Shown here: positions 2,495 to 20,789 of the stretch, piece after piece | Layout: every line of letters begins with the position of its first letter | Position numbering within the stretch: position 1 is the stretch's first letter | DNA from: Labia minor | Lineage: Eukaryota > Arthropoda > Insecta > Dermaptera > Spongiphoridae | Direction of reading: 5' to 3' | Assembly (NCBI GenBank): GCA_963082975.1 | Contig: OY720345.1 | Span: 8,520,491 to 8,584,490 of the forward strand | DNA: 64,000 nucleotides | The notes under the pieces: generated by a model | Databases searched by the model: none | Told to the model about the DNA's origin: nothing | What the model saw: only the letters and a program-made list of their open reading frames with translations | Position numbers and translations under genes: made by a program

Positions 2495-3627
2495 GGCAAC
2501 TAAATATTCAAATTTTCAGTCCCGTGTCTCGTGACTGTGTTTGCCCACTTCGCCTTTAGACTTTTACAAAAAATTTTAAAATGATAATTAGATGGAGGTT
2601 TAATCTTGCTCAAACAACGAATAAAATTAGAAAATATTTATATATATTTGTGTTTTTACTTAAATTATAAAATATATATTTACTATCAAGCTCAGTCGTT
2701 GTCAATAAAATTTTTATTTTATAAATTTAAATTACCTATATAAAATAATCTATTAACATAAATAGTTTTTTTTTAATGAATTATTAAGAATTTATTAATT
2801 CAGATTTTTCAAATATGGATTAATAAATTATAATTATAGTATAAATTAAATTAAATTGAATGTAATCTTAAGTTTATATTGGTTTTTATTATTTTATTTT
2901 TTTTTTTAAATGTTGATGTAAACAGGTAAATAGTAGAATGTGGAACAAAGCCATTTGTTTATATGAAAGGTGTGTAAAGTTCAAAATGTGTACAATCCTT
3001 TGAGTTGGTTAATTTATAAAGCCCTTTTAGTCAAGGGTTGTAAATTCTTATTAACAACGTTGCTACCCCATGTGCTAATAAGGTGTTTGCATGGTTTTAG
3101 AAATTGCCTCTCAATTGATTTATCATGTCATATTAATCTCGACATTTTAGTGTAGACATACGCCTGATTGTGCCCCTCCAAGGCATTCCCAGGACAATCA
3201 ATTCTATCCACTTAATCCCATCGAGGAAGCTAGCGATGTTGTTAATCCTTTCTTATCAACCCTTTTATGTCATCTGTCATACACTCCAGCTATTCACTAA
3301 TAAATTCACGATCGATATATATTTTTATTTTTTTTTTATTTTCAATACCAATTCAAGATTATTTAGAAATATTTACAAAAACATTTCTTAGAAGGAATAT
3401 CATTATTTTGTGCAATAGATACTCGTATATTTTCGTATATTTTCAGATTTTTTTTTACAATGAAAATACAAGATCAAATATGATGAATTGAGAATGAATT
3501 AAATTTGAATTTCAAATCCGCAAAAACAAAAATCATTTATATTTAAAAATTAAATTCTTAAAAAATGTAAAACTAGAAATAAACTTACTTTTTTTAATCA
3601 TTATTATTTTTTTAAAAAATATAATGA

Positions 3628-3676
<49 letters not shown>

Positions 3677-4418
3677 TTTTTATTATTATTATTATTTTTA
3701 TTATATTATATATTGATAATAATTTTTATAGTTATAGCAATAAGTGTGGCTAGTATTTATTTTTTATTTATTTTCTTAATTAATTAATTATCTCATTTTT
3801 AATTATTTAATTTTTTATTCGTTTTTTTTTTAAATTAATAATAAAATTAATGAATCAATGGGAATGAATTTGGCCTAGTTACGATTAAATTTTATTATGC
3901 AAAGAGTACGTATCACTGTTGATTGCAAATAAAAGGTAAATCCGTGTTTTGTACGACTGGATCATCCTTTTCAGAATACTGAATGAGTATATAAAGGTAC
4001 GTAATCCATCCATCGAGTATAACACGCTCATTGGGATTTTATAAATCTACCGACCTTAATTAAGTTAGAAAGATATTCTACCAAAAGAATCTGGCTTTAA
4101 GTAAATTAAATATATAACCATTTAATTTTATTAAAACAATTTGAGTTTATGATATTTTTTTAGACTTGGTTTTATTTCACGTTTTAATTTTAAAAAGTTA
4201 TATTGAACTTTTTTAGGAAAAAAAAAATATTAAAACTATTCTTTGAGTTGAATTTTCAAACTTTAATCTGAAGAACATGAACAAAAATCTCCAAAATTTA
4301 AAAAAAATTTATAATTTTTTTTAAAAAAAATATCACTTTTTATAAAAATATTTACACAATTAAATAAATATACTTATTTATAATTTTTAATTAATATACA
4401 ATTTTTAATATATATATA
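2495..4418. other. AT-rich non-coding stretch with a TTA microsatellite
   Basis: Non-coding, with a long imperfect (TTA)n tract at about 3629-3705. The part at 3140-3310 is less AT-rich, but I see no family resemblance or convincing splice-bounded exon. Confidence 0.5.
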
Positions 4419-12060: not shown

Positions 12061-13588
12061 CTGCTCTTTCATTTTGTAAATTCTAATCTATTCTATTATT
12101 AATAATCCTTTTCAAGTTTATTATATTTATGATTATACAATATATATTTAAAATATGTAAATATTTTTTTTTCGATTCGATCTGATAGGTACTTTTTGCA
12201 TGTCTGATAATTATTGTCTCATGGAAGTGTTCTTTCCTTATTCGCGTAGTTATAAACATAATTGATGGAAATACTATTTCCTTCTTTCCAATTTTGGCAT
12301 TCAAATCACCTTCTAATATGAATGTATGATTATAATAATTTGAAACATTCTCTTTAATCACGATTGGAGAATTCAATCACCATTTACCATTTACCATTTT
12401 AACTATTTTGGAATTGTTTTATATAAATGTTATGATTTAAAATAAAATTGGTATCCAATCTATATATTATATACAATCATTGTACAAGATAAAACGATCT
12501 CTGGGGTGTCTTCAAATCGCCACTTATAGTTGGTGTAAAAAGAGAGGAGTAAGAGGAAGAGGATTGATGGGAGAGAGAAACAGGAATGTAACAAGCAACC
12601 CTTCTAATTTCAAATCACTTGTGCTCTTGCCCTTTGCAATTCGGGACCATCGGTATTTAGCCTAGCAACTGCAAAGACAAACTCTAGTCCAATAGCTTGT
12701 GAGGGGATCAATCCGTTGGGGGTTGCTTGTTGGGTGAATAGTAGAGAGGGTTATTGGGTGGAGCGGAGGGGGGTGAGGGGTGGGAGGGATGAGTGTGGAT
12801 GGGAAACCCCTCCGGGAATTGAGTGGCTTTTCTTAGTTTACCATATATTCGCCACAGATCCCTAGCACCCATTTTTGCTGGTCCCGAATACAAAGCAGGA
12901 GCATCAGTTTGTCTGCCTTCCGGGATTCGATCCTCTTCGAACTTGGATTTTTTTTCTTTTTTCTCTCTCTCTCTCTCTCGTTTTCTACCCTTCAGTGAAT
13001 GTCTATTGCTACATTTTATAAAGTTTAATATTATGTCGAGTTGAAGTGGCCGGTTATGTGTGTTTTCTAACCAAGCGTAAAGCGATTTGGATGTGTGTAT
13101 GCTTTCAAAATATATAAGTATATATAACTCACGTTTATATATATACTTAAAAAAAAATAAAAAATAAAGGGAAAAAAGTTTAAAAAAGCAGAAGAAACAA
13201 AAAAAAAAAAAAATTGTATTCTTTTTCTATCCATAAAAAAAAATAAACTTTAAATTATATTTTATAAAATAAATTGTTCAAAGATCAGATAGATCTATTA
13301 GAAAATTTATTTAACCAGATAAATATATGTAACTTATGAATTATATAAAATCAACGTATGATTTGCCTGATAAATAATAAAACTAAAATAAATCATATCT
13401 TTATACATATTGTAGTGAATAATAATAATAATAATTTTTATTTTTTTTTTTTTATTTTATTTTTACAAATCACAATCTAGTTATAAACCTTAACTAATAA
13501 GTGATATTTATTTAAAGTTAATGATTTTAAAAACATGCAAACATGAGCAGTTTAATCCATTAGTTCATGAGGTTTATTCCTTCTGGTC
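11957..13588. other. Non-coding stretch with possible endonuclease scrap and CT-rich tracts
   Basis: The minus frame at 12083-12376 contains FILEGDLNAKIGKKE, which resembles the GDFNAKIG motif of APE-type LINE endonucleases, but nothing else in it supports a LINE. The region 12480-13040 is less AT-rich with G-rich (12720-12790) and CT-rich (12957-12980) runs; no gene recognised. From 13040 to 13588 it is AT-rich. Confidence 0.35.
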
Positions 13589-13599
13589 TGGTTGGCATC

Positions 13600-13640
<41 letters not shown>

Positions 13641-13694
13641 CTTTATTTTGAAAAAATAATACATTTTATATACAAAAATATATACATTTACTTT
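13641..13694 (-). repeat. 54-bp inverted repeat, left arm (inverted LINE 3' end)
   Basis: Exact reverse complement of 17967-18020. Lies inside the target-site duplication, hence part of the same inserted unit. The adjoining (TAA)n tract (13601-13640) corresponds to the (TTA)n tail on the right, but is longer. Confidence 0.97.
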
Positions 13695-13844
13695 TGGTAC
13701 TTGCTCTTTGGTCGTGCTAGAGGTCGGACGCATTACTTGCTCCCACTGATATAAATAGAAATATAGAATATTATATATATATAATTATATTTATAAGTTT
13801 TTTGATTTGTTTTTTCTTTTTTTCTTTCGTTTTTTATAAATAAA

Positions 13845-14612
13845 ATGAGTGAATTTAAGGAAGTTATGAAGAAGTTTGATGATTTTAAAGATGAGATCAA
13901 GAATTTGATTCGAGAAGAATTGAGGAATCTCAATATTTCGTCGGCATTGGAGGAGATGAACGAGAGATGCGAAGATTTGAAGAGAGAGAATGAACAACTA
14001 AGAAATGAATTGTCACGCCAGGGAGAAGAGCTGGAAACCTACAGAAGACAAAATAATTTAATCATCCACGGAGTGCCCTGCAAAGAAAATGAAGATTATG
14101 AAATGCTAGAAGAGTCGGTCTTAGACATTTGTAATAAAATTATGTCTGTGGCTACAACCGGCAGTGATATCAATTATGTAAAAAGAATTGGTAAGCGAAA
14201 CTCCGAGAAAAAACCAATTGTGCTGTCGCTTGTCTCCAAAAATCATAAGATGAAGATTTTACGCAATACAAGAAAATTGAAGAATAGTAAAATATATATA
14301 TTTGAAGATTTGGGGAAGAAGAAGCAAGGACAACGGAGGGAACTGATAAAGTTAAGGGATAAATACAGGGAAGAGGGAAAAATTTGCAAATTGAAAAATG
14401 ATGGTCTTATTGTGGATGGCCGTTATGTTCATTATGATCTGCTTTTTAAAGATCCGCAGAAGACGAGGACGTCGACAAAGCCTCAAAGAGAAGAGGAAAC
14501 AAATGATGAGGATAGATCGAAAAAGAGGAAGAGGAATGTGTGTACTAAAACCAAACCCACATCTATAGAAAATTTTTTTTGTCCCCGAAGCAACTCCGGA
14601 CCAACACATTAG
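13845..14612 (+). CDS. LINE ORF1 protein (coiled-coil, RNA-binding type)
   Basis: 255 residues. Residues about 1-75 are charged and heptad-like (for example LEEMNERCEDLKRENEQL), predicting a trimer-forming coiled coil. Next comes NNLIIHGVPCKENEDYEML and a mixed alpha/beta segment to about residue 190 (VKRIGKR, KPIVLSL, KIYIFEDLGKK) that resembles the RRM-like and C-terminal domains of L1-type ORF1 proteins. The tail is basic (KKRKRN). Expected role: bind element RNA and form the ribonucleoprotein for target-primed reverse transcription. The ATG follows a short 5' UTR. The coding end overlaps the open frame of ORF2 by 44 nt. Function is inferred from architecture and position; there is no CCHC zinc knuckle. 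Confidence 0.85.
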   Translation: MSEFKEVMKKFDDFKDEIKNLIREELRNLNISSALEEMNERCEDLKRENEQLRNELSRQGEELETYRRQNNLIIHGVPCKENEDYEMLEESVLDICNKIMSVATTGSDINYVKRIGKRNSEKKPIVLSLVSKNHKMKILRNTRKLKNSKIYIFEDLGKKKQGQRRELIKLRDKYREEGKICKLKNDGLIVDGRYVHYDLLFKDPQKTRTSTKPQREEETNDEDRSKKRKRNVCTKTKPTSIENFFCPRSNSGPTH

Positions 14613-14640
14613 GCGGATAAAACGGCAGGAAAATGAAAGT

Positions 14641-17600
14641 GAGTTCCTCGACATAATTTCTTATAATATTGCCGGGATAAAAAGTAAAATAAACAATTTT
14701 GAGTTTTTAAATTTTATTAGAGGTTTTAAAATTTTTGTATTGATAGAGACATATGTTGAGGATGTTAAAACATTTGCCAGAATCCAAAATCTGTTTCCAA
14801 ATCATACTCTTAGATTCATATCTGCTTCTAGAATAAAAAAGAGAGGGAGAGCGAGTGGGGGTATGATTTATGGCGTAAATAATCAATTAAGAAGCATGGT
14901 AAAGATGATTGAAATTGATAGTGTCATAATCTTTGAAATGAATATTCACTCAACCAAGCATTACCTGGCGCCTGTGTATTTGAATTGTAACAATTGGATT
15001 GACGACTATGATTCCCTGTATAAGTTTATGGAACGAATGCAAAATGAGCAAATTATTTTAATAGGAGATTTTAATGGAAGGGTGTCGGACTGGCAGGAGA
15101 TACCAGTGGGAGATATCGGATTGAGAAGTTTAAAAAAATATAGACGTTCGAGGGATAATGTAATTAATTCAAATGGCAGAATATTATTAAAACTTTTTAA
15201 TGATTTTAATTTAGCAATTTTAAATGGACGTATTGAGGGGGATCAGATGGGTGAACACACATTCATTGGGGCAATGGGTAACTCAGTAATAGATTTATGT
15301 GCTGTATCATTGGATGCTGCTCAATATATTCATTCCCTCGAAATACTCCCAAAACATTTTTCAGATCATCTCCCGTTAGCTCTGAAATATAAATATAATT
15401 ATTATGAGACAACAGACTCCATTGCGCTACTTCCTAAATTGAAATGGATTGATGGGAGAAGGGATAATTTTAATAAGGAGGTAGATAGGGCATTGAGATC
15501 GAGCCCAATGATGGGGGATTCGTCAATGGAGACAGATCACTTAACAAATTTATTATATGAAATAGCAATTAAAAATAATATGACTTACGATAATAATAAA
15601 AATATATTGAAATTCGAAAATAGGTGGTATGATTACGAATGTTATAAATTAAGAAAAAAATTATATATAGCATTGAACCTTCTTAGAAAGAATAATTCTA
15701 AAATATTTAAATCGAATTATATTAAAATTAGAAATGAATATAAAAATAAATGCAAAATAAAGAAACAGCTATATTTAGATACTCTAATAAATGAATTTAA
15801 AAAAGTAAATAACAGCAAAGAATTTTGGTGTCTGGTACGTCATTTTAAAAATAAAAAATTTAATACTGATAAAAATATCCCGCCGCTTGCATGGTTGAAT
15901 TATTTTAAGAAGTTGTTAAACCCTTCGCTTTCGGGTTCAAGTATAAGCTATGCGGAGCCATTTATAATTGTTGAATATTTAGATAGCCCTTTTTTGATGT
16001 CTGAATTGGTAAGGGTGTTGAATAAAGCTAAAAGTAATAAAGCTCCTGGTCTAGACAGAATTACTTACGAATTTTATAAAAATGTTTCAAATCTTTTTTT
16101 GGAGAAACTCCTTACTTGTTTTAATAAGATTTTTGAAAATGGAATTGTTCCAAGGGGTTTCAAAGATTCAATCATATTTCCAATACATAAAAAGGGACTG
16201 ACTAGTGAAGTATCGAATTATAGGGGGATCTCTTTTAATAATGTTGTGAGTAAATTGTTCACAGGGTTATTGTTAAATAGAATCACTAGCTGGATAAATA
16301 ACATGAATATAATAGGGGAATTTCAAGCAGGATTCCGAAGTAATTATTCAACTGTGGACAATATCAACACCCTTATTAACATAATTAACCTCCGGTTAAA
16401 TAAAAAAAGACAAAAAGTCTTCGCATTCTTCGTGGATTTCTCCTCCGCATTCGATCGAGTTGATAGGCAGGCCCTGTATTACAAATTACTGAATTTGGGA
16501 TTGTCTACCAAGGTAGTCAAAATAATAAAAAGTCTGTATACAGACACGCAGGCTAGTGTGTGGTGTGGAGAAGAGCTAACTAAAGCATTCGAAACAACTA
16601 TGGGAGTGAAACAGGGATGTTTGCTAAGTCCGACGCTATTCTCATTGTTTGTGAATGATATAGAAGATTTTATGGAGGGGGGGGTGACCATTGGTGAAAC
16701 TAAAATTAAGATGCTGGCCTATGCGGATGACATTGTAATTTTAGCCCCGGAAAAGATAGTGCTACAAAGGATGATAAGCACATTAGAGAATTATTGCAAG
16801 ATGTGGAATTTGATAGTAAATTTGGAAAAATCAAAGATAGTAGTATTTAGAAATGGTGGGCGTCCTGGGGCGGGAGAAAATTGGTATTTTGGAGGAAAAA
16901 AGGTGGAAATAGTTAATAAATATAAATATCTTGGAATCACAGTATCGTCGGGGTTAGCAATGGGATGGCACTTTAAGGAGAAAAAGGAGAGGGCCATATT
17001 TGCTCTTAATTCCTTTAATAGAATACTATTAAATAATAATATAAACTGGAAGTCTAAATTGAAAGTCTTTAACTCAGTGTCACGATCAATAATATGCTAT
17101 GGTGCCCAGGTGTGGGGATATAAGAGTTATGATGAGGTTGAAGTACCTTTCAAATTCTTCGTCAAAAAATGTTTTAATCTGCCAAGGAATACCCCCGATT
17201 ACATATTATACTTGGAAACAAACCTCTCACCAACTTATATATACACTTTAAAATTACACTTGGATTACATAATAAAATGTTTAAAAATGACGCATAATAG
17301 ATATCCATTTGTAGTAATAAAAGAAATTATAAACAATAAAATTTCATGGTTTAAGGACTGGCAAAGTTTGTGTGAAAAGTGTAACCTTAACATTAGTGAT
17401 ATCCTTAATGGTAAAATCAGTTCCAAATTTATGGTATATGAAATGAAAAAAATAATAGTAAGTGATCTAATGGAGAGAGTGAACAATAGTGAAAGACATA
17501 CAATTTATAAACAACTAGAAAGATTTGAATATGAAAATGGAGAGATGAGTGTAAATAATAGGAGTTGGCTGATGAAAATTCGAGGAGAATTGCTATATTT

Positions 17601-17853
17601 AAATAAATATACTTTCAGAAGCCAAGTCAAAATATGCTCATTATGCAATCTTTTGGAGGAGGAGGATACTTTCCATTTCATTGCGAGATGCCCCATCTTG
17701 AAAGAATTTAGGATGAGGGCACTCGGCAGGGAAGTGCTTACCTTTGAGGAGTTCAAAGAGTACCTTGAAGGGGGGGACTGGCAGAGTCTTGTCAAATATA
17801 GTAGGGAGGCCTGGAAATACAGGTACTCCCTAATAAGGGAATTTAATTTTTGA
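14641..17853 (+). CDS. LINE ORF2: APE endonuclease and reverse transcriptase
   Basis: The frame is open from 14569 to the TGA at 17851-17853, and no ATG precedes the conserved endonuclease N-terminus. Residues SYNIAGIKSK and FVLIETYVED, upstream of the first LIETY codons at 14740, are clearly part of the domain. I start the entry at 14641, but the true initiation is unknown. Counting from 14740, the endonuclease spans roughly residues 1-220, with ILIGDFNGRVSDW, HTFIGAMGNSVIDL and the catalytic FSDHLPL. The reverse transcriptase follows: KSNKAPGLDRI, NYRGISFNN, FFVDFSSAFDRVDR, GVKQGCLLSPTLF and YADDIVIL at about 661-668. A Cys/His motif CSLC..HFIARCP lies near 965-985. Expected reaction: nick target DNA and copy element RNA in place. 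No frameshift or stop is visible. Confidence 0.95.
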   Translation, partial: EFLDIISYNIAGIKSKINNFEFLNFIRGFKIFVLIETYVEDVKTFARIQNLFPNHTLRFISASRIKKRGRASGGMIYGVNNQLRSMVKMIEIDSVIIFEMNIHSTKHYLAPVYLNCNNWIDDYDSLYKFMERMQNEQIILIGDFNGRVSDWQEIPVGDIGLRSLKKYRRSRDNVINSNGRILLKLFNDFNLAILNGRIEGDQMGEHTFIGAMGNSVIDLCAVSLDAAQYIHSLEILPKHFSDHLPLALKYKYNYYETTDSIALLPKLKWIDGRRDNFNKEVDRALRSSPMMGDSSMETDHLTNLLYEIAIKNNMTYDNNKNILKFENRWYDYECYKLRKKLYIALNLLRKNNSKIFKSNYIKIRNEYKNKCKIKKQLYLDTLINEFKKVNNSKEFWCLVRHFKNKKFNTDKNIPPLAWLNYFKKLLNPSLSGSSISYAEPFIIVEYLDSPFLMSELVRVLNKAKSNKAPGLDRITYEFYKNVSNLFLEKLLTCFNKIFENGIVPRGFKDSIIFPIHKKGLTSEVSNYRGISFNNVVSKLFTGLLLNRITSWINNMNIIGEFQAGFRSNYSTVDNINTLINIINLRLNKKRQKVFAFFVDFSSAFDRVDRQALYYKLLNLGLSTKVVKIIKSLYTDTQASVWCGEELTKAFETTMGVKQGCLLSPTLFSLFVNDIEDFMEGGVTIGETKIKMLAYADDIVILAPEKIVLQRMISTLENYCKMWNLIVNLEKSKIVVFRNGGRPGAGENWYFGGKKVEIVNKYKYLGITVSSGLAMGWHFKEKKERAIFALNSFNRILLNNNINWKSKLKVFNSVSRSIICYGAQVWGYKSYDEVEVPFKFFVKKCFNLPRNTPDYILYLETNLSPTYIYTLKLHLDYIIKCLKMTHNRYPFVVIKEIINNKISWFKDWQSLCEKCNLNISDILNGKISSKFMVYEMKKIIVSDLMERVNNSERHTIYKQLERFEYENGEMSVNNRSWLMKIRGELLYLNKYTFRSQVKICSLCNLLEEEDTFHFIARCPILKEFRMRALGREVLTFEEFKEYLEGGDWQSLVKYSREAWKYRYSLIREFNF

Positions 17854-18037
17854 TATTAATCCCCGACTTTGGGACTTTAAATTGTGTTTGTTTTTTTTCT
17901 TTTTAATGTATATATGTATAGGGAAAGAGCAGTTCATCACAAGGCCAAATGCCATGATTATATCTTAAAGTAAATGTATATATTTTTGTATATAAAATGT
18001 ATTATTTTTTCAAAATAAAGATTATTATTATTATTAT
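17854..18037 (+). other. LINE 3' UTR and (TTA)n tail
   Basis: Begins just after the ORF2 stop. Contains the polyadenylation-like AATAAA within CAAAATAAAG near 18011-18020, then ATTATTATTATTATTAT directly before the target duplication. The final 54 unique bases are those repeated inverted at the 5' end. Confidence 0.85.
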
Positions 18038-18929
18038 GGTTGGCATCATTTTAAATACATTTGTTATTTGTTAAGAATAAAAGGCTAAAGATATATAAAT
18101 AAGAGATGTCGTAGGCAAATGGCATTTTTTCAGAAAATAGATTTGCCTAGACAAAAACTATTTGGCTATATCTTTGTTGGGCAAATAGCTTTAAATACAG
18201 TTGCCAATTACGAAATTATTCAAAAAATTTTTTATTCTTTATTGTATATTTATCAAACTCGAGCTAGTCATAACTTCAGTGCAGTTTTAAGATCTAAATT
18301 AATTTATTTAATTGTCAAAATAAAAATCAGTTTGATATAAATAAATAACAGTGCAATCTCAATAAAAAAAGTATATTTTGTTTATTCAAGTATAAGTAAT
18401 ATTTCCCCTCCCCGCCATTATTTTGCTTATATCCTATTAAATTGTTTTAATTGATTAAAAGATTTTTTGAAAATAAATAATATATGTTTTTTATCGACCG
18501 ACGATAGAATGGTTATTTTCCTAAAATTGCCATTTGCCTACGACATAGGTTCTTAAACTTATGTACTCCACGGACCCCCACTTGAAAAAATTTTTTTTGA
18601 CGGACCCCCATCACAACTTTAGGTACTTTACGTCATTTTATTAATTAATTTCTGGCTTACGATCTCATAAGGACAAGGATATATGATGAATATTTCTAAC
18701 AGTGATTGGTGAATAACGATTTTTTTGCATATTGTAGAACACATTTTATTAGAAATTATAATATTGAAGAAAGAAAATACAAACATTGTCATAGCAACAA
18801 ATCTCACAAATTATAATGGGTACTTACATTAAATTCATATAAATATTTTATAATTTTTTTCAGAAAATATTAAATAAGAAATATTTTAAAAAATAACTGC
18901 ATCTATCTCATTAAATATAACTTACATAT

Positions 18930-20789
18930 TTAATGAGATGTATGCAGTTGTTTTCTTGAAACAAGAATCTCAATATCTGGCTTAATATTGGAAACTTTTA
19001 ATCTAAGATCCGGCTCTACATTTAATTTGTTTCTATATTTAGACTTAATATAAAATAGTACCGAAAAAGCTTGTTCGCATAAATATGTTGTGCAGAATGG
19101 AATCAAGTGTTGAAGTGCTTTATTTGCAAGCGCAGGATAATCTGACCTGAGAAGTAACCAAAAGTTGCTCAATTCAGTTTTGTTAAATTTTAGTTTATAA
19201 GTTGTATCACATGATAATTCCACGAGAATATCTTGTTCAGGTGCAGATAAATGTTTAGTATTTGTAATTTCCATATTAAATGGATCTCTGATCCAGTTAT
19301 TGCAAGGATCAGGAGTAGAAAAATACTTCCTGAAGTTGCTTTTCAAAGTAATTAAATGTTCAACAAATAATTGACGCGTTTGATTAAGCAATTTTTCACT
19401 GGAGCTTTCTATGAAATCATTGAGAGTTGGAAAAGACTCATATACACCGTTCTGGATGCGTTTCGACCACAAGTCGATTTTTTTAATCATTGCTTCTATT
19501 TTATCTTCAACTTTAAATATATTTACAACAGTACCTTGCAGGCTCAAATTAAGTTCGTTCAATTTTGTAAAAATATCAGTCAAGTAAGCCACCTTAGCTA
19601 ACCAGATAAAATCATTGAAACATTCGGTCAGTTCAAAATGCGCATCTATTAAAAACAATCGTATTTCATCTCGAAGCTCAAAAAGGCGAATGAGTACTTT
19701 CCCGCGGGACAACCAACGTACATCTGTATGTAATAATAAATGTGTATGTTGACTACCCATTTCCTCACACAAAATTTTAAAAACTCTGGAATTAAGTGGA
19801 CGAGCCTTAATGAAATTGACAATTTTAACTACTTCGTCTAATGTTCTTTTCAAATCTGGTGACATATTTTTGGCTGCTAATGATTCTCTGTGAATGCAGC
19901 AATGATTCCAAACAACCTGAGGCGCAACATTTTTAATAAGAGCAATCAATCCAGTTCTTGTACCTGACATTGCACGAGCACCATCAGTGCAAATTCCAAC
20001 ACATTTTGGCCACTCTATTTCATTTTCGGTTATAAAATTATTCAAACTGTTAAATATGTCATTAGCTGTCGTTCGTGAAGGTAGTGAATCACAAAACAAT
20101 ACATCTTCTTGTATTTGATTTTCAAACTCATATCTAATGAAAGCTAACAAATTGGCATTATTAGTGACATCAGTACTTTCATCCAATTGTAATGAGTAAT
20201 AGTGACTTTTGCGCACTCTCGATATTAATTCTTCTTTTATATTACATGACATGTCTTCAATCCTATTCTTAACCGTATCATTTGATAATGAAATCAAATT
20301 TATATCGTTTGCTGCTTTAGTTCCTAACATTATATTTGTAATTACTTTTGTAGCAGGAAGAATTAATTGCTCTGCTATATTATGCGGCTTTCCTGCTTTA
20401 GCAATAAGTAGAGCTACTTCATATGATGCCATTACTGCTTTCTTACTCATACCACCAGATCCCGTCTTTACCATCAATTTCTGACTTGAATTAAGTTCTT
20501 CTTTTTTCATTTTAAAAAATTCGATAGACTTACTAACATGCTCGCTGTGCTTTGTTTGTAAATGACGTCTGAGATTAGCAGGTTTCATACTTTCATTGGA
20601 TAAACTTTCCTGACATAGAACGCAGACTGGTCTTTCCACATCATTGTTGCAAATATAAGTAAATCCAAATGATAAATAATCATCCGAATATTTTCTAGTT
20701 TTGCGTTTCTTGGTAGAGTTTGCTGTTGATGCCTCATCATCTGATTCTTTCCGTTTCTGTGTTGAACCAGTTTGTAGCCAACGATCCAT
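18930..20789 (-). CDS. hAT transposase, ZBED5/SCAND3-like, 619 residues
   Basis: Starts with the ATG at 20789-20787. A basic N-terminus (KKRKTRK) is followed by a BED-type zinc finger: CVLCQES with Cys56 and Cys59, then His76 and His81 in LRRHLQTKH. The RNase H-like catalytic core has D203 in LQLDESTDV, D269 in GICTDGARAMSG and E572 in CEQAFS, the usual hAT DDE triad. HCCIHRESLAAKNM is typical of the ZBED5/FAM200/SCAND3 lineage. The hATC dimerisation region is at the C-terminus (about 520-600). Length fits the family. It lies inside matched hAT ends with an 8-bp duplication, so it is the element's own enzyme rather than a host gene. All three catalytic residues are present and no stop interrupts it; activity is plausible but untested. 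Confidence 0.95.
   Translation of the reverse strand: MDRWLQTGSTQKRKESDDEASTANSTKKRKTRKYSDDYLSFGFTYICNNDVERPVCVLCQESLSNESMKPANLRRHLQTKHSEHVSKSIEFFKMKKEELNSSQKLMVKTGSGGMSKKAVMASYEVALLIAKAGKPHNIAEQLILPATKVITNIMLGTKAANDINLISLSNDTVKNRIEDMSCNIKEELISRVRKSHYYSLQLDESTDVTNNANLLAFIRYEFENQIQEDVLFCDSLPSRTTANDIFNSLNNFITENEIEWPKCVGICTDGARAMSGTRTGLIALIKNVAPQVVWNHCCIHRESLAAKNMSPDLKRTLDEVVKIVNFIKARPLNSRVFKILCEEMGSQHTHLLLHTDVRWLSRGKVLIRLFELRDEIRLFLIDAHFELTECFNDFIWLAKVAYLTDIFTKLNELNLSLQGTVVNIFKVEDKIEAMIKKIDLWSKRIQNGVYESFPTLNDFIESSSEKLLNQTRQLFVEHLITLKSNFRKYFSTPDPCNNWIRDPFNMEITNTKHLSAPEQDILVELSCDTTYKLKFNKTELSNFWLLLRSDYPALANKALQHLIPFCTTYLCEQAFSVLFYIKSKYRNKLNVEPDLRLKVSNIKPDIEILVSRKQLHTSH

Follow-up and report, generated by a model that had tools for sequence, protein, structure and literature searches.

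Why should a coding-intact long interspersed nuclear element (LINE) carry an exact, inverted copy of its own 3′ end at its 5′ end? The question is raised by a 64,000-nt stretch of Labia minor DNA (assembly GCA_963082975.1, contig OY720345.1, positions 8,520,491-8,584,490 of the forward strand), which we call the window and in whose numbering positions are given below. A young, full-length LINE with two open reading frames (ORFs) lies there inside one 13-bp target-site duplication (TSD), the whole spanning 13589-18049. We conclude, with a probability of about 0.88, that both nicked strands of the target primed reverse transcription on the tail of the LINE RNA in one recent insertion. The element is thus most likely an unusually clean by-product of that insertion, not a new kind of element.

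The inverted repeat joins 13624-13694 to 17967-18037 with 71 of 71 bases matching, 54 of them the unique end of the 3′ untranslated region (3′UTR) and 17 belonging to the triplet tail. When 13400-18300 was dinucleotide-shuffled 200 times, exact inverted repeats reached at most 22 nt (mean 14.3). Dispersed repeats elsewhere in the window give longer inverted repeats, up to 102 nt; thus, the length of 71 nt is not in itself unique, but the position of the arms at both ends of one element is. The insertion consists of two oppositely oriented pieces of complementary DNA (cDNA), which meet head to head at TGGT and whose tails each border one copy of the TSD. The junction reads TTTACTTT-TGGT-ACTTGC, so that TGGT separates the inverted piece from ACTTGC, the first bases common to the window copy and the 5′ ends of other copies; most other inspected copies have at least two G directly before ACTTGC. 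No TSD copy was found between the inverted piece and the LINE. The features are as follows.

13589-13601, no strand: left TSD copy TGGTTGGCATCAT, found in the window only here and at 18037-18049 (two exact occurrences)
13602-13640, minus strand: inverted triplet tail, (AAT)13
13641-13694, minus strand: inverted copy of the final 54 unique 3′UTR bases, an exact match to 17967-18020
13695-13698, no strand: TGGT at the head-to-head junction
13699-13844, plus strand: 5′UTR of the LINE, beginning ACTTGCTCTTTGGTCGTGC like other copies of the family
13845-14612, plus strand: ORF1, 255 amino acids
14569-17853, plus strand: ORF2 open frame, with endonuclease and reverse transcriptase
17967-18020, plus strand: final 54 unique 3′UTR bases, partner arm of 13641-13694
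18021-18036 (or 18037), plus strand: right triplet tail, (ATT)n, short for this LINE family
18037-18049, no strand: right TSD copy TGGTTGGCATCAT, whose first T is possibly part of the tail

The element is a non-LTR (long terminal repeat) retrotransposon: ORF2 encodes an endonuclease and a reverse transcriptase (Pfam matches Exo_endo_phos_2, 4.3e-10, and RVT_1, 1.5e-37; PDB matches human L1 ORF2, 3.7e-36, and R2, 1.5e-24), and no LTR-like direct repeat was found at the element. Independent copies of the LINE have a 3′ tail and a TSD of variable length, and many are 5′-truncated. A script detected the TSD in 22 of 35 copies and not in the other 13, some of which have one by eye (L041, for example). 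A sequence-only reading of this DNA had described such a two-ORF non-LTR element, with 54 unique 3′UTR bases and the triplet tail recurring exactly inverted at the 5′ end and both ends inside one 13-bp TSD. This description, including the count of 54, agrees with our results. The same reading held that the inverted piece had arrived in the same event, and here too we concur: one TSD encloses both pieces, none lies between them, and the arms are identical over 71 nt.

The ends of related copies

The family was compared in the window's own assembly, which comprises 604 Mb in 71 contigs. A genome search with ORF2 gave at least 56 matches (such counts are lower bounds), five of which, the window copy included, cover ORF2 positions 1-1077 without a stop. 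In the 20 stretches fetched around matches for comparison, and leaving the window copy aside, the 3′-end query matches LINE copies only at their 3′ ends. Seven ordinary copies that we inspected have an intact or nearly intact 5′ end (L023, L024, L026, L030, L031, L039 and L041), and an inverted 3′ end or an AAT array stands at the 5′ junction in none of the seven. All of these except L039, which starts without G, begin with two to five G and then ACTTGC, adjoining the TSD or the flank. The 5′ end of another copy, L025, is shortened by about 40 bases.

A 31-base pattern from the 3′ end (two or fewer mismatches) matches 84 places, of which 45 are forward and 39 reverse, and a 32-base pattern from the 5′ end (three or fewer mismatches) matches 17. 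At two of these 17 5′ ends an inverted 3′ end lies within 6 kb: at 67 nt in the window copy and at 1386 nt in the copy at C2:65128833 (L032). By coordinates, therefore, the short inverted 3′ end is confined to the window copy. Ten of the 17 were inspected as sequence (the seven ordinary copies, the window copy, L032 and L040), and seven were placed by coordinates (C4:1484129, C5:55506452, C1:83633824, C1:104387259, C4:45701532, C5:73195563 and C10:30050215). Among 30 loci cut out, LINE sequence occurs in both orientations only at L053, the window locus, and L059, the L032 locus. Opposite-strand pairs of 3′ ends within 20 kb number four, the window among them; the pair C10:48692413/48698561 (L033) is an inverted duplication whose two copies have identical flanks, C9:30061225/30069479 (L073) has two inverted arms with the same LINE breakpoints and is interpreted as an inverted duplication, and C6:35162517/35177222 faces inward over 14.7 kb.

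L032 provides a control from the same family. Its tail lies at the left, followed by element positions 2952-4329 inverted and joined directly to GGACTTGC, from which the forward sequence runs to about 2500, all within a 12-nt TSD. Turned round, this structure is a conventional twin-priming product whose second cDNA reached the 5′ end of the RNA. Twin priming thus occurs in this LINE family, and its second cDNA can reach the RNA 5′ end.

The window copy is young, with five private substitutions relative to the other aligned copies (L041 left out) and 98.15-99.84% identity to 11 copies. Among the matches listed in the genome search, none was a paralogous empty site spanning the junction.

Proposed priming on both strands and its alternatives

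We propose that reverse transcription on the (AUU)n tail of LINE RNA was initiated from both nicked ends of the target. The cDNA from one nicked strand, primed on the tail, would have stopped after 54 unique bases, and the other nicked strand would have primed inside the tail, its cDNA reaching the RNA 5′ end, or to within a few bases of it, to yield the complete element. The two cDNA ends would then have been joined without clear microhomology. The short inverted cDNA may be an aborted first product, with the complete element as the second cDNA, primed inside the tail. RNA transcribed from the window copy would presumably begin near G/ACTTGC, so that its daughters should not inherit the inverted piece; the absence of that piece from the other 5′ ends examined is in line with this expectation.

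Tail lengths and nick contexts bear on which strand primed which cDNA. Counted as uninterrupted triplet after AAAGATT, the window copy's tails measure 38 nt on the left and 14 nt on the right, and those of 35 other copies 4-49 nt, with a median of 29 in the 16 covered by longer stretches. A first-nick matrix was built from 20 of the 22 TSD sites; L028 and L056 were dropped (a 7-nt match inside triplet sequence; a TSD overlapping triplet-like sequence), and the 13 copies lacking a script-found TSD were not used. The edge at the left tail scores −1.9 and that at the right tail −6.4. True first nicks score below −1.9 at 6 of 20 sites and below −6.4 at 2, and second nicks at 13 and 6 of 20, respectively. 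These scores weakly suggest that the left edge is the ordinary first-strand site. Taken together, the ordinary left tail, the short right tail and the nick context point weakly to the short inverted piece as the first-strand product, an assignment that, given priming on both strands, we consider fairly probable. For human L1 poly(T) loci, Meyer et al. (2010) likewise report that it is the poly(T) side that shows the canonical cleavage motif (PMC2837659).

The sequence-only reading had offered two explanations for the inverted piece. The second, that terminal inverted repeats derived from the 3′ end are a regular feature of the family, would amount to a new LINE architecture, and the check that the reading proposed, a comparison of 5′ ends in the source genome, bears directly on it. 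The window copy alone fits. The 3′-end query finds only 3′ ends in the other fetched copies, six copies begin with at least two G and ACTTGC at the TSD or flank and L039 without G, and the long inverted piece of L032 is a twin-priming product; inverted ends would be expected in most full-length copies, and by coordinates the short segment is present at 1 of 17 5′ ends. We therefore reject a family trait, which we regard as highly improbable. Template jumping, in which synthesis would pass from the end of one RNA onto the tail of a second, has next to no probability: such jumps are described for R2 (PMC2912911), and in L045 a 19-nt stretch of the truncated 5′ end is directly repeated, which looks like a jump in this family, but a jump to the 3′ end of another RNA yields a direct repeat and not an inverted one. 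We reject this simple form for its wrong orientation.

The region is rich in repeats, many of them nested or adjacent, and the two pieces might accordingly be two separate insertions, an older short inverted copy and a later full-length LINE at its inner edge. The second element would then have had to hit the exact edge without a TSD of its own, and the arms are identical over 71 nt. Because one TSD surrounds both pieces and there is no second TSD between them, we reject a nested insertion as very improbable. Misjoining of reads or contigs at the AT-rich repeat deserves mention since triplet arrays are hard to assemble; it is nonetheless improbable, as a misjoin is not expected to yield a matching 13-bp TSD outside both tails together with a start at the family 5′ end, and the assembly has 71 contigs for its 604 Mb.

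The first explanation of the sequence-only reading, synthesis primed on both cut strands with cDNAs joined head to head, is the one that we support. That reading thus stands in part, with the refinement, itself weak, that the short inverted cDNA perhaps came from ordinary first-strand priming.

Priming on both strands could have drawn on one RNA or on two. In the one-RNA version, a single molecule would have been primed twice in a long tail, its 54 bases copied twice and the second cDNA displacing the first. Twin priming does occur in this family, as L032 indicates, and the short right tail is what priming inside the tail would be expected to leave; further, for 11 L1 loci, where the 3′ poly(A) is short too, Meyer et al. 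propose a second priming internal to the tail (PMC2837659, in the passage on those loci). This version requires, however, two rounds of copying of the 54 bases and of part of the tail from the one molecule, and published twin-priming overlaps are short. Since 71 nt are present in both cDNAs, above the reported overlaps, two RNAs are somewhat more likely than one; once two-strand priming is granted, a single RNA is a possibility that we hold only tentatively. The arms do not differ, and in this part the members of the family are too alike for two source RNAs to be distinguished.

Several points weigh against our conclusion. The architecture is seen in a single case. The overlap of 54 unique bases and tail far exceeds what is found in human L1, so that twin priming on a single RNA fits poorly, and the version with two RNAs is itself unproven. 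Seven of the 17 5′ ends are judged only by their coordinates, and a coordinate list would miss very short, tail-only or strongly diverged inverted pieces. Tails of 14 nt or less are present in 5 of 35 copies and in 2 of the subset of 16 (both of these being interrupted longer arrays), and slippage after insertion can alter tail lengths. Finally, the nick matrix has 20 sites, and its two classes overlap broadly, with second nicks exceeding −1.9 at 7 of the 20.

Coding content and neighbouring repeats

The ORF2 frame has no in-frame ATG in 14569-14760, and it overlaps the end of ORF1 in another frame (region 14569-14863). ORF1 has 255 amino acids in 7 of 9 compared copies, the window copy included, and the overlap is nearly identical in all 9; thus, ORF2 would probably start by a non-AUG codon, by reinitiation or by frameshift. 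Folding of the 3′UTR RNA is unremarkable (z = −0.60). Outside the source genome, searches of viral_contigs, genome_contigs, plasmids and phages with ORF2 gave no relative, and pattern searches of viral_contigs gave no matches. A reverse-transcriptase pattern identified 14 loci in genome_contigs, 11 of which have tblastn matches to ORF2 at 21-27% identity, too distant to be informative; among the 14 loci, no exact inverted repeat shown exceeds 29 nt. Contigs L003-L010 and L012-L014, filed as bacterial assemblies, encode a LINE-like reverse transcriptase at this 21-27% identity to ORF2 and are probably eukaryotic contamination.

Other copies of the family show peculiarities of their own. L064 and L070 have 41 and 115 nt of the LINE 3′ end, after which both continue with one shared stretch of 230-odd bases; in L064 this stretch closes with a fresh (ATT)n tail and what appears to be a TSD. 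The pattern looks like 3′ transduction in which the tail was rebuilt on a 3′ end of foreign origin. L028 and L042 are truncated copies with unusually long flank duplications, of 106 bp in L028 (99% identity) and 149 bp in L042 (96%). L040, a LINE 5′-end fragment of about 134 nt, interrupts the ORF2 of a different copy between element positions 3345 and 3346.

To the left of the window element, 13384-13599 is a dispersed repeat with 40 scored genome matches, itself included, the others at 80-88% identity. Its matches end between 13582 and 13599, and an AAT run lies at 13418; the repeat may be a small element with its edge in the target site. A family of short interspersed nuclear elements of about 285 bp, presumably tRNA-like (a label based on a B-box-like motif), has 11 copies or fragments in the window between 2216 and 62681 and a T-rich tail unlike that of the LINE. 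On the minus strand, 18930-20789 holds an open frame of 619 amino acids with weak matches, below the Pfam cut-offs, to the hAT dimerisation domain and the BED finger.

Known priming processes and the meaning of the window copy

Twin priming is reportedly the proposal of Ostertag and Kazazian in 2001. As the relevant sections of two later papers describe it, two opposite cDNAs are joined inside one TSD (PMC12016303, PMC2912911), and such is the arrangement here. The window copy differs in that its second priming would lie in the tail and not at an internal RNA site, and in that the element is complete, without internal deletion. Its overlap, moreover, is 71 nt, and the figures given for human L1 twin priming are small, with a median of 12 bp and quartiles of 4-17 (PMC12016303, in its account of overlaps).

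Dual priming has been postulated for human L1 in the discussion by Meyer et al., who could not separate it from twin priming and hoped for validation (PMC2837659). Its features, as set out there, include tail-primed cDNA from both nicked strands within one TSD, a better first-nick motif on the side of the inverted tail, and an internal junction without clear microhomology; the window copy resembles it in all of these and has tails at both target junctions. The 39 loci described in that paper, none of them full length, have poly(T) beside which no inverted L1 sequence was detected (PMC2837659), whereas the window copy has 54 unique bases after the inverted tail and a full-length partner. A 2026 catalogue suggests, in its treatment of antisense RNA/LINE-1 chimeras, twin priming with a second RNA (PMC13174262). 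There, as here, an antisense second piece lies within the insertion, and the antisense Alu pieces bear a poly(T) tail; the second RNA is Alu, 5S rRNA, tRNA or the like in the chimeras described, in contrast to the LINE's own 3′ end in the window copy. In the open-licence literature, covered mostly at the level of title and abstract, we found neither a LINE family with terminal inverted repeats nor a full-length LINE bearing an inverted copy of its 3′ end. The window copy, found once, is a new form of a known priming process.

Meyer et al. had only homopolymers derived from tails and were unable to show copying of the 3′ end of a second RNA; a LINE whose tail is a triplet array and whose two cDNAs both include 54 unique bases offers a readable case. 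The finding also bears on the symmetry of target-primed reverse transcription between the two cut strands. It is conceivable, although we think it doubtful, that in this LINE the two nicked strands are interchangeable primers, the second-strand cDNA running the whole RNA and the first-strand cDNA aborting, with a coding-intact element left behind. If so, twin priming, which is usually thought to destroy copies, would also make full-length ones, marked by a short inverted 3′ end, and the window copy would directly document dual priming with two RNAs in its sequence. The signature, an inverted 3′ end and tail before a full-length 5′ end within one TSD, is searchable in any genome, and terminal inverted repeats of this kind need not signal a new class of transposon.

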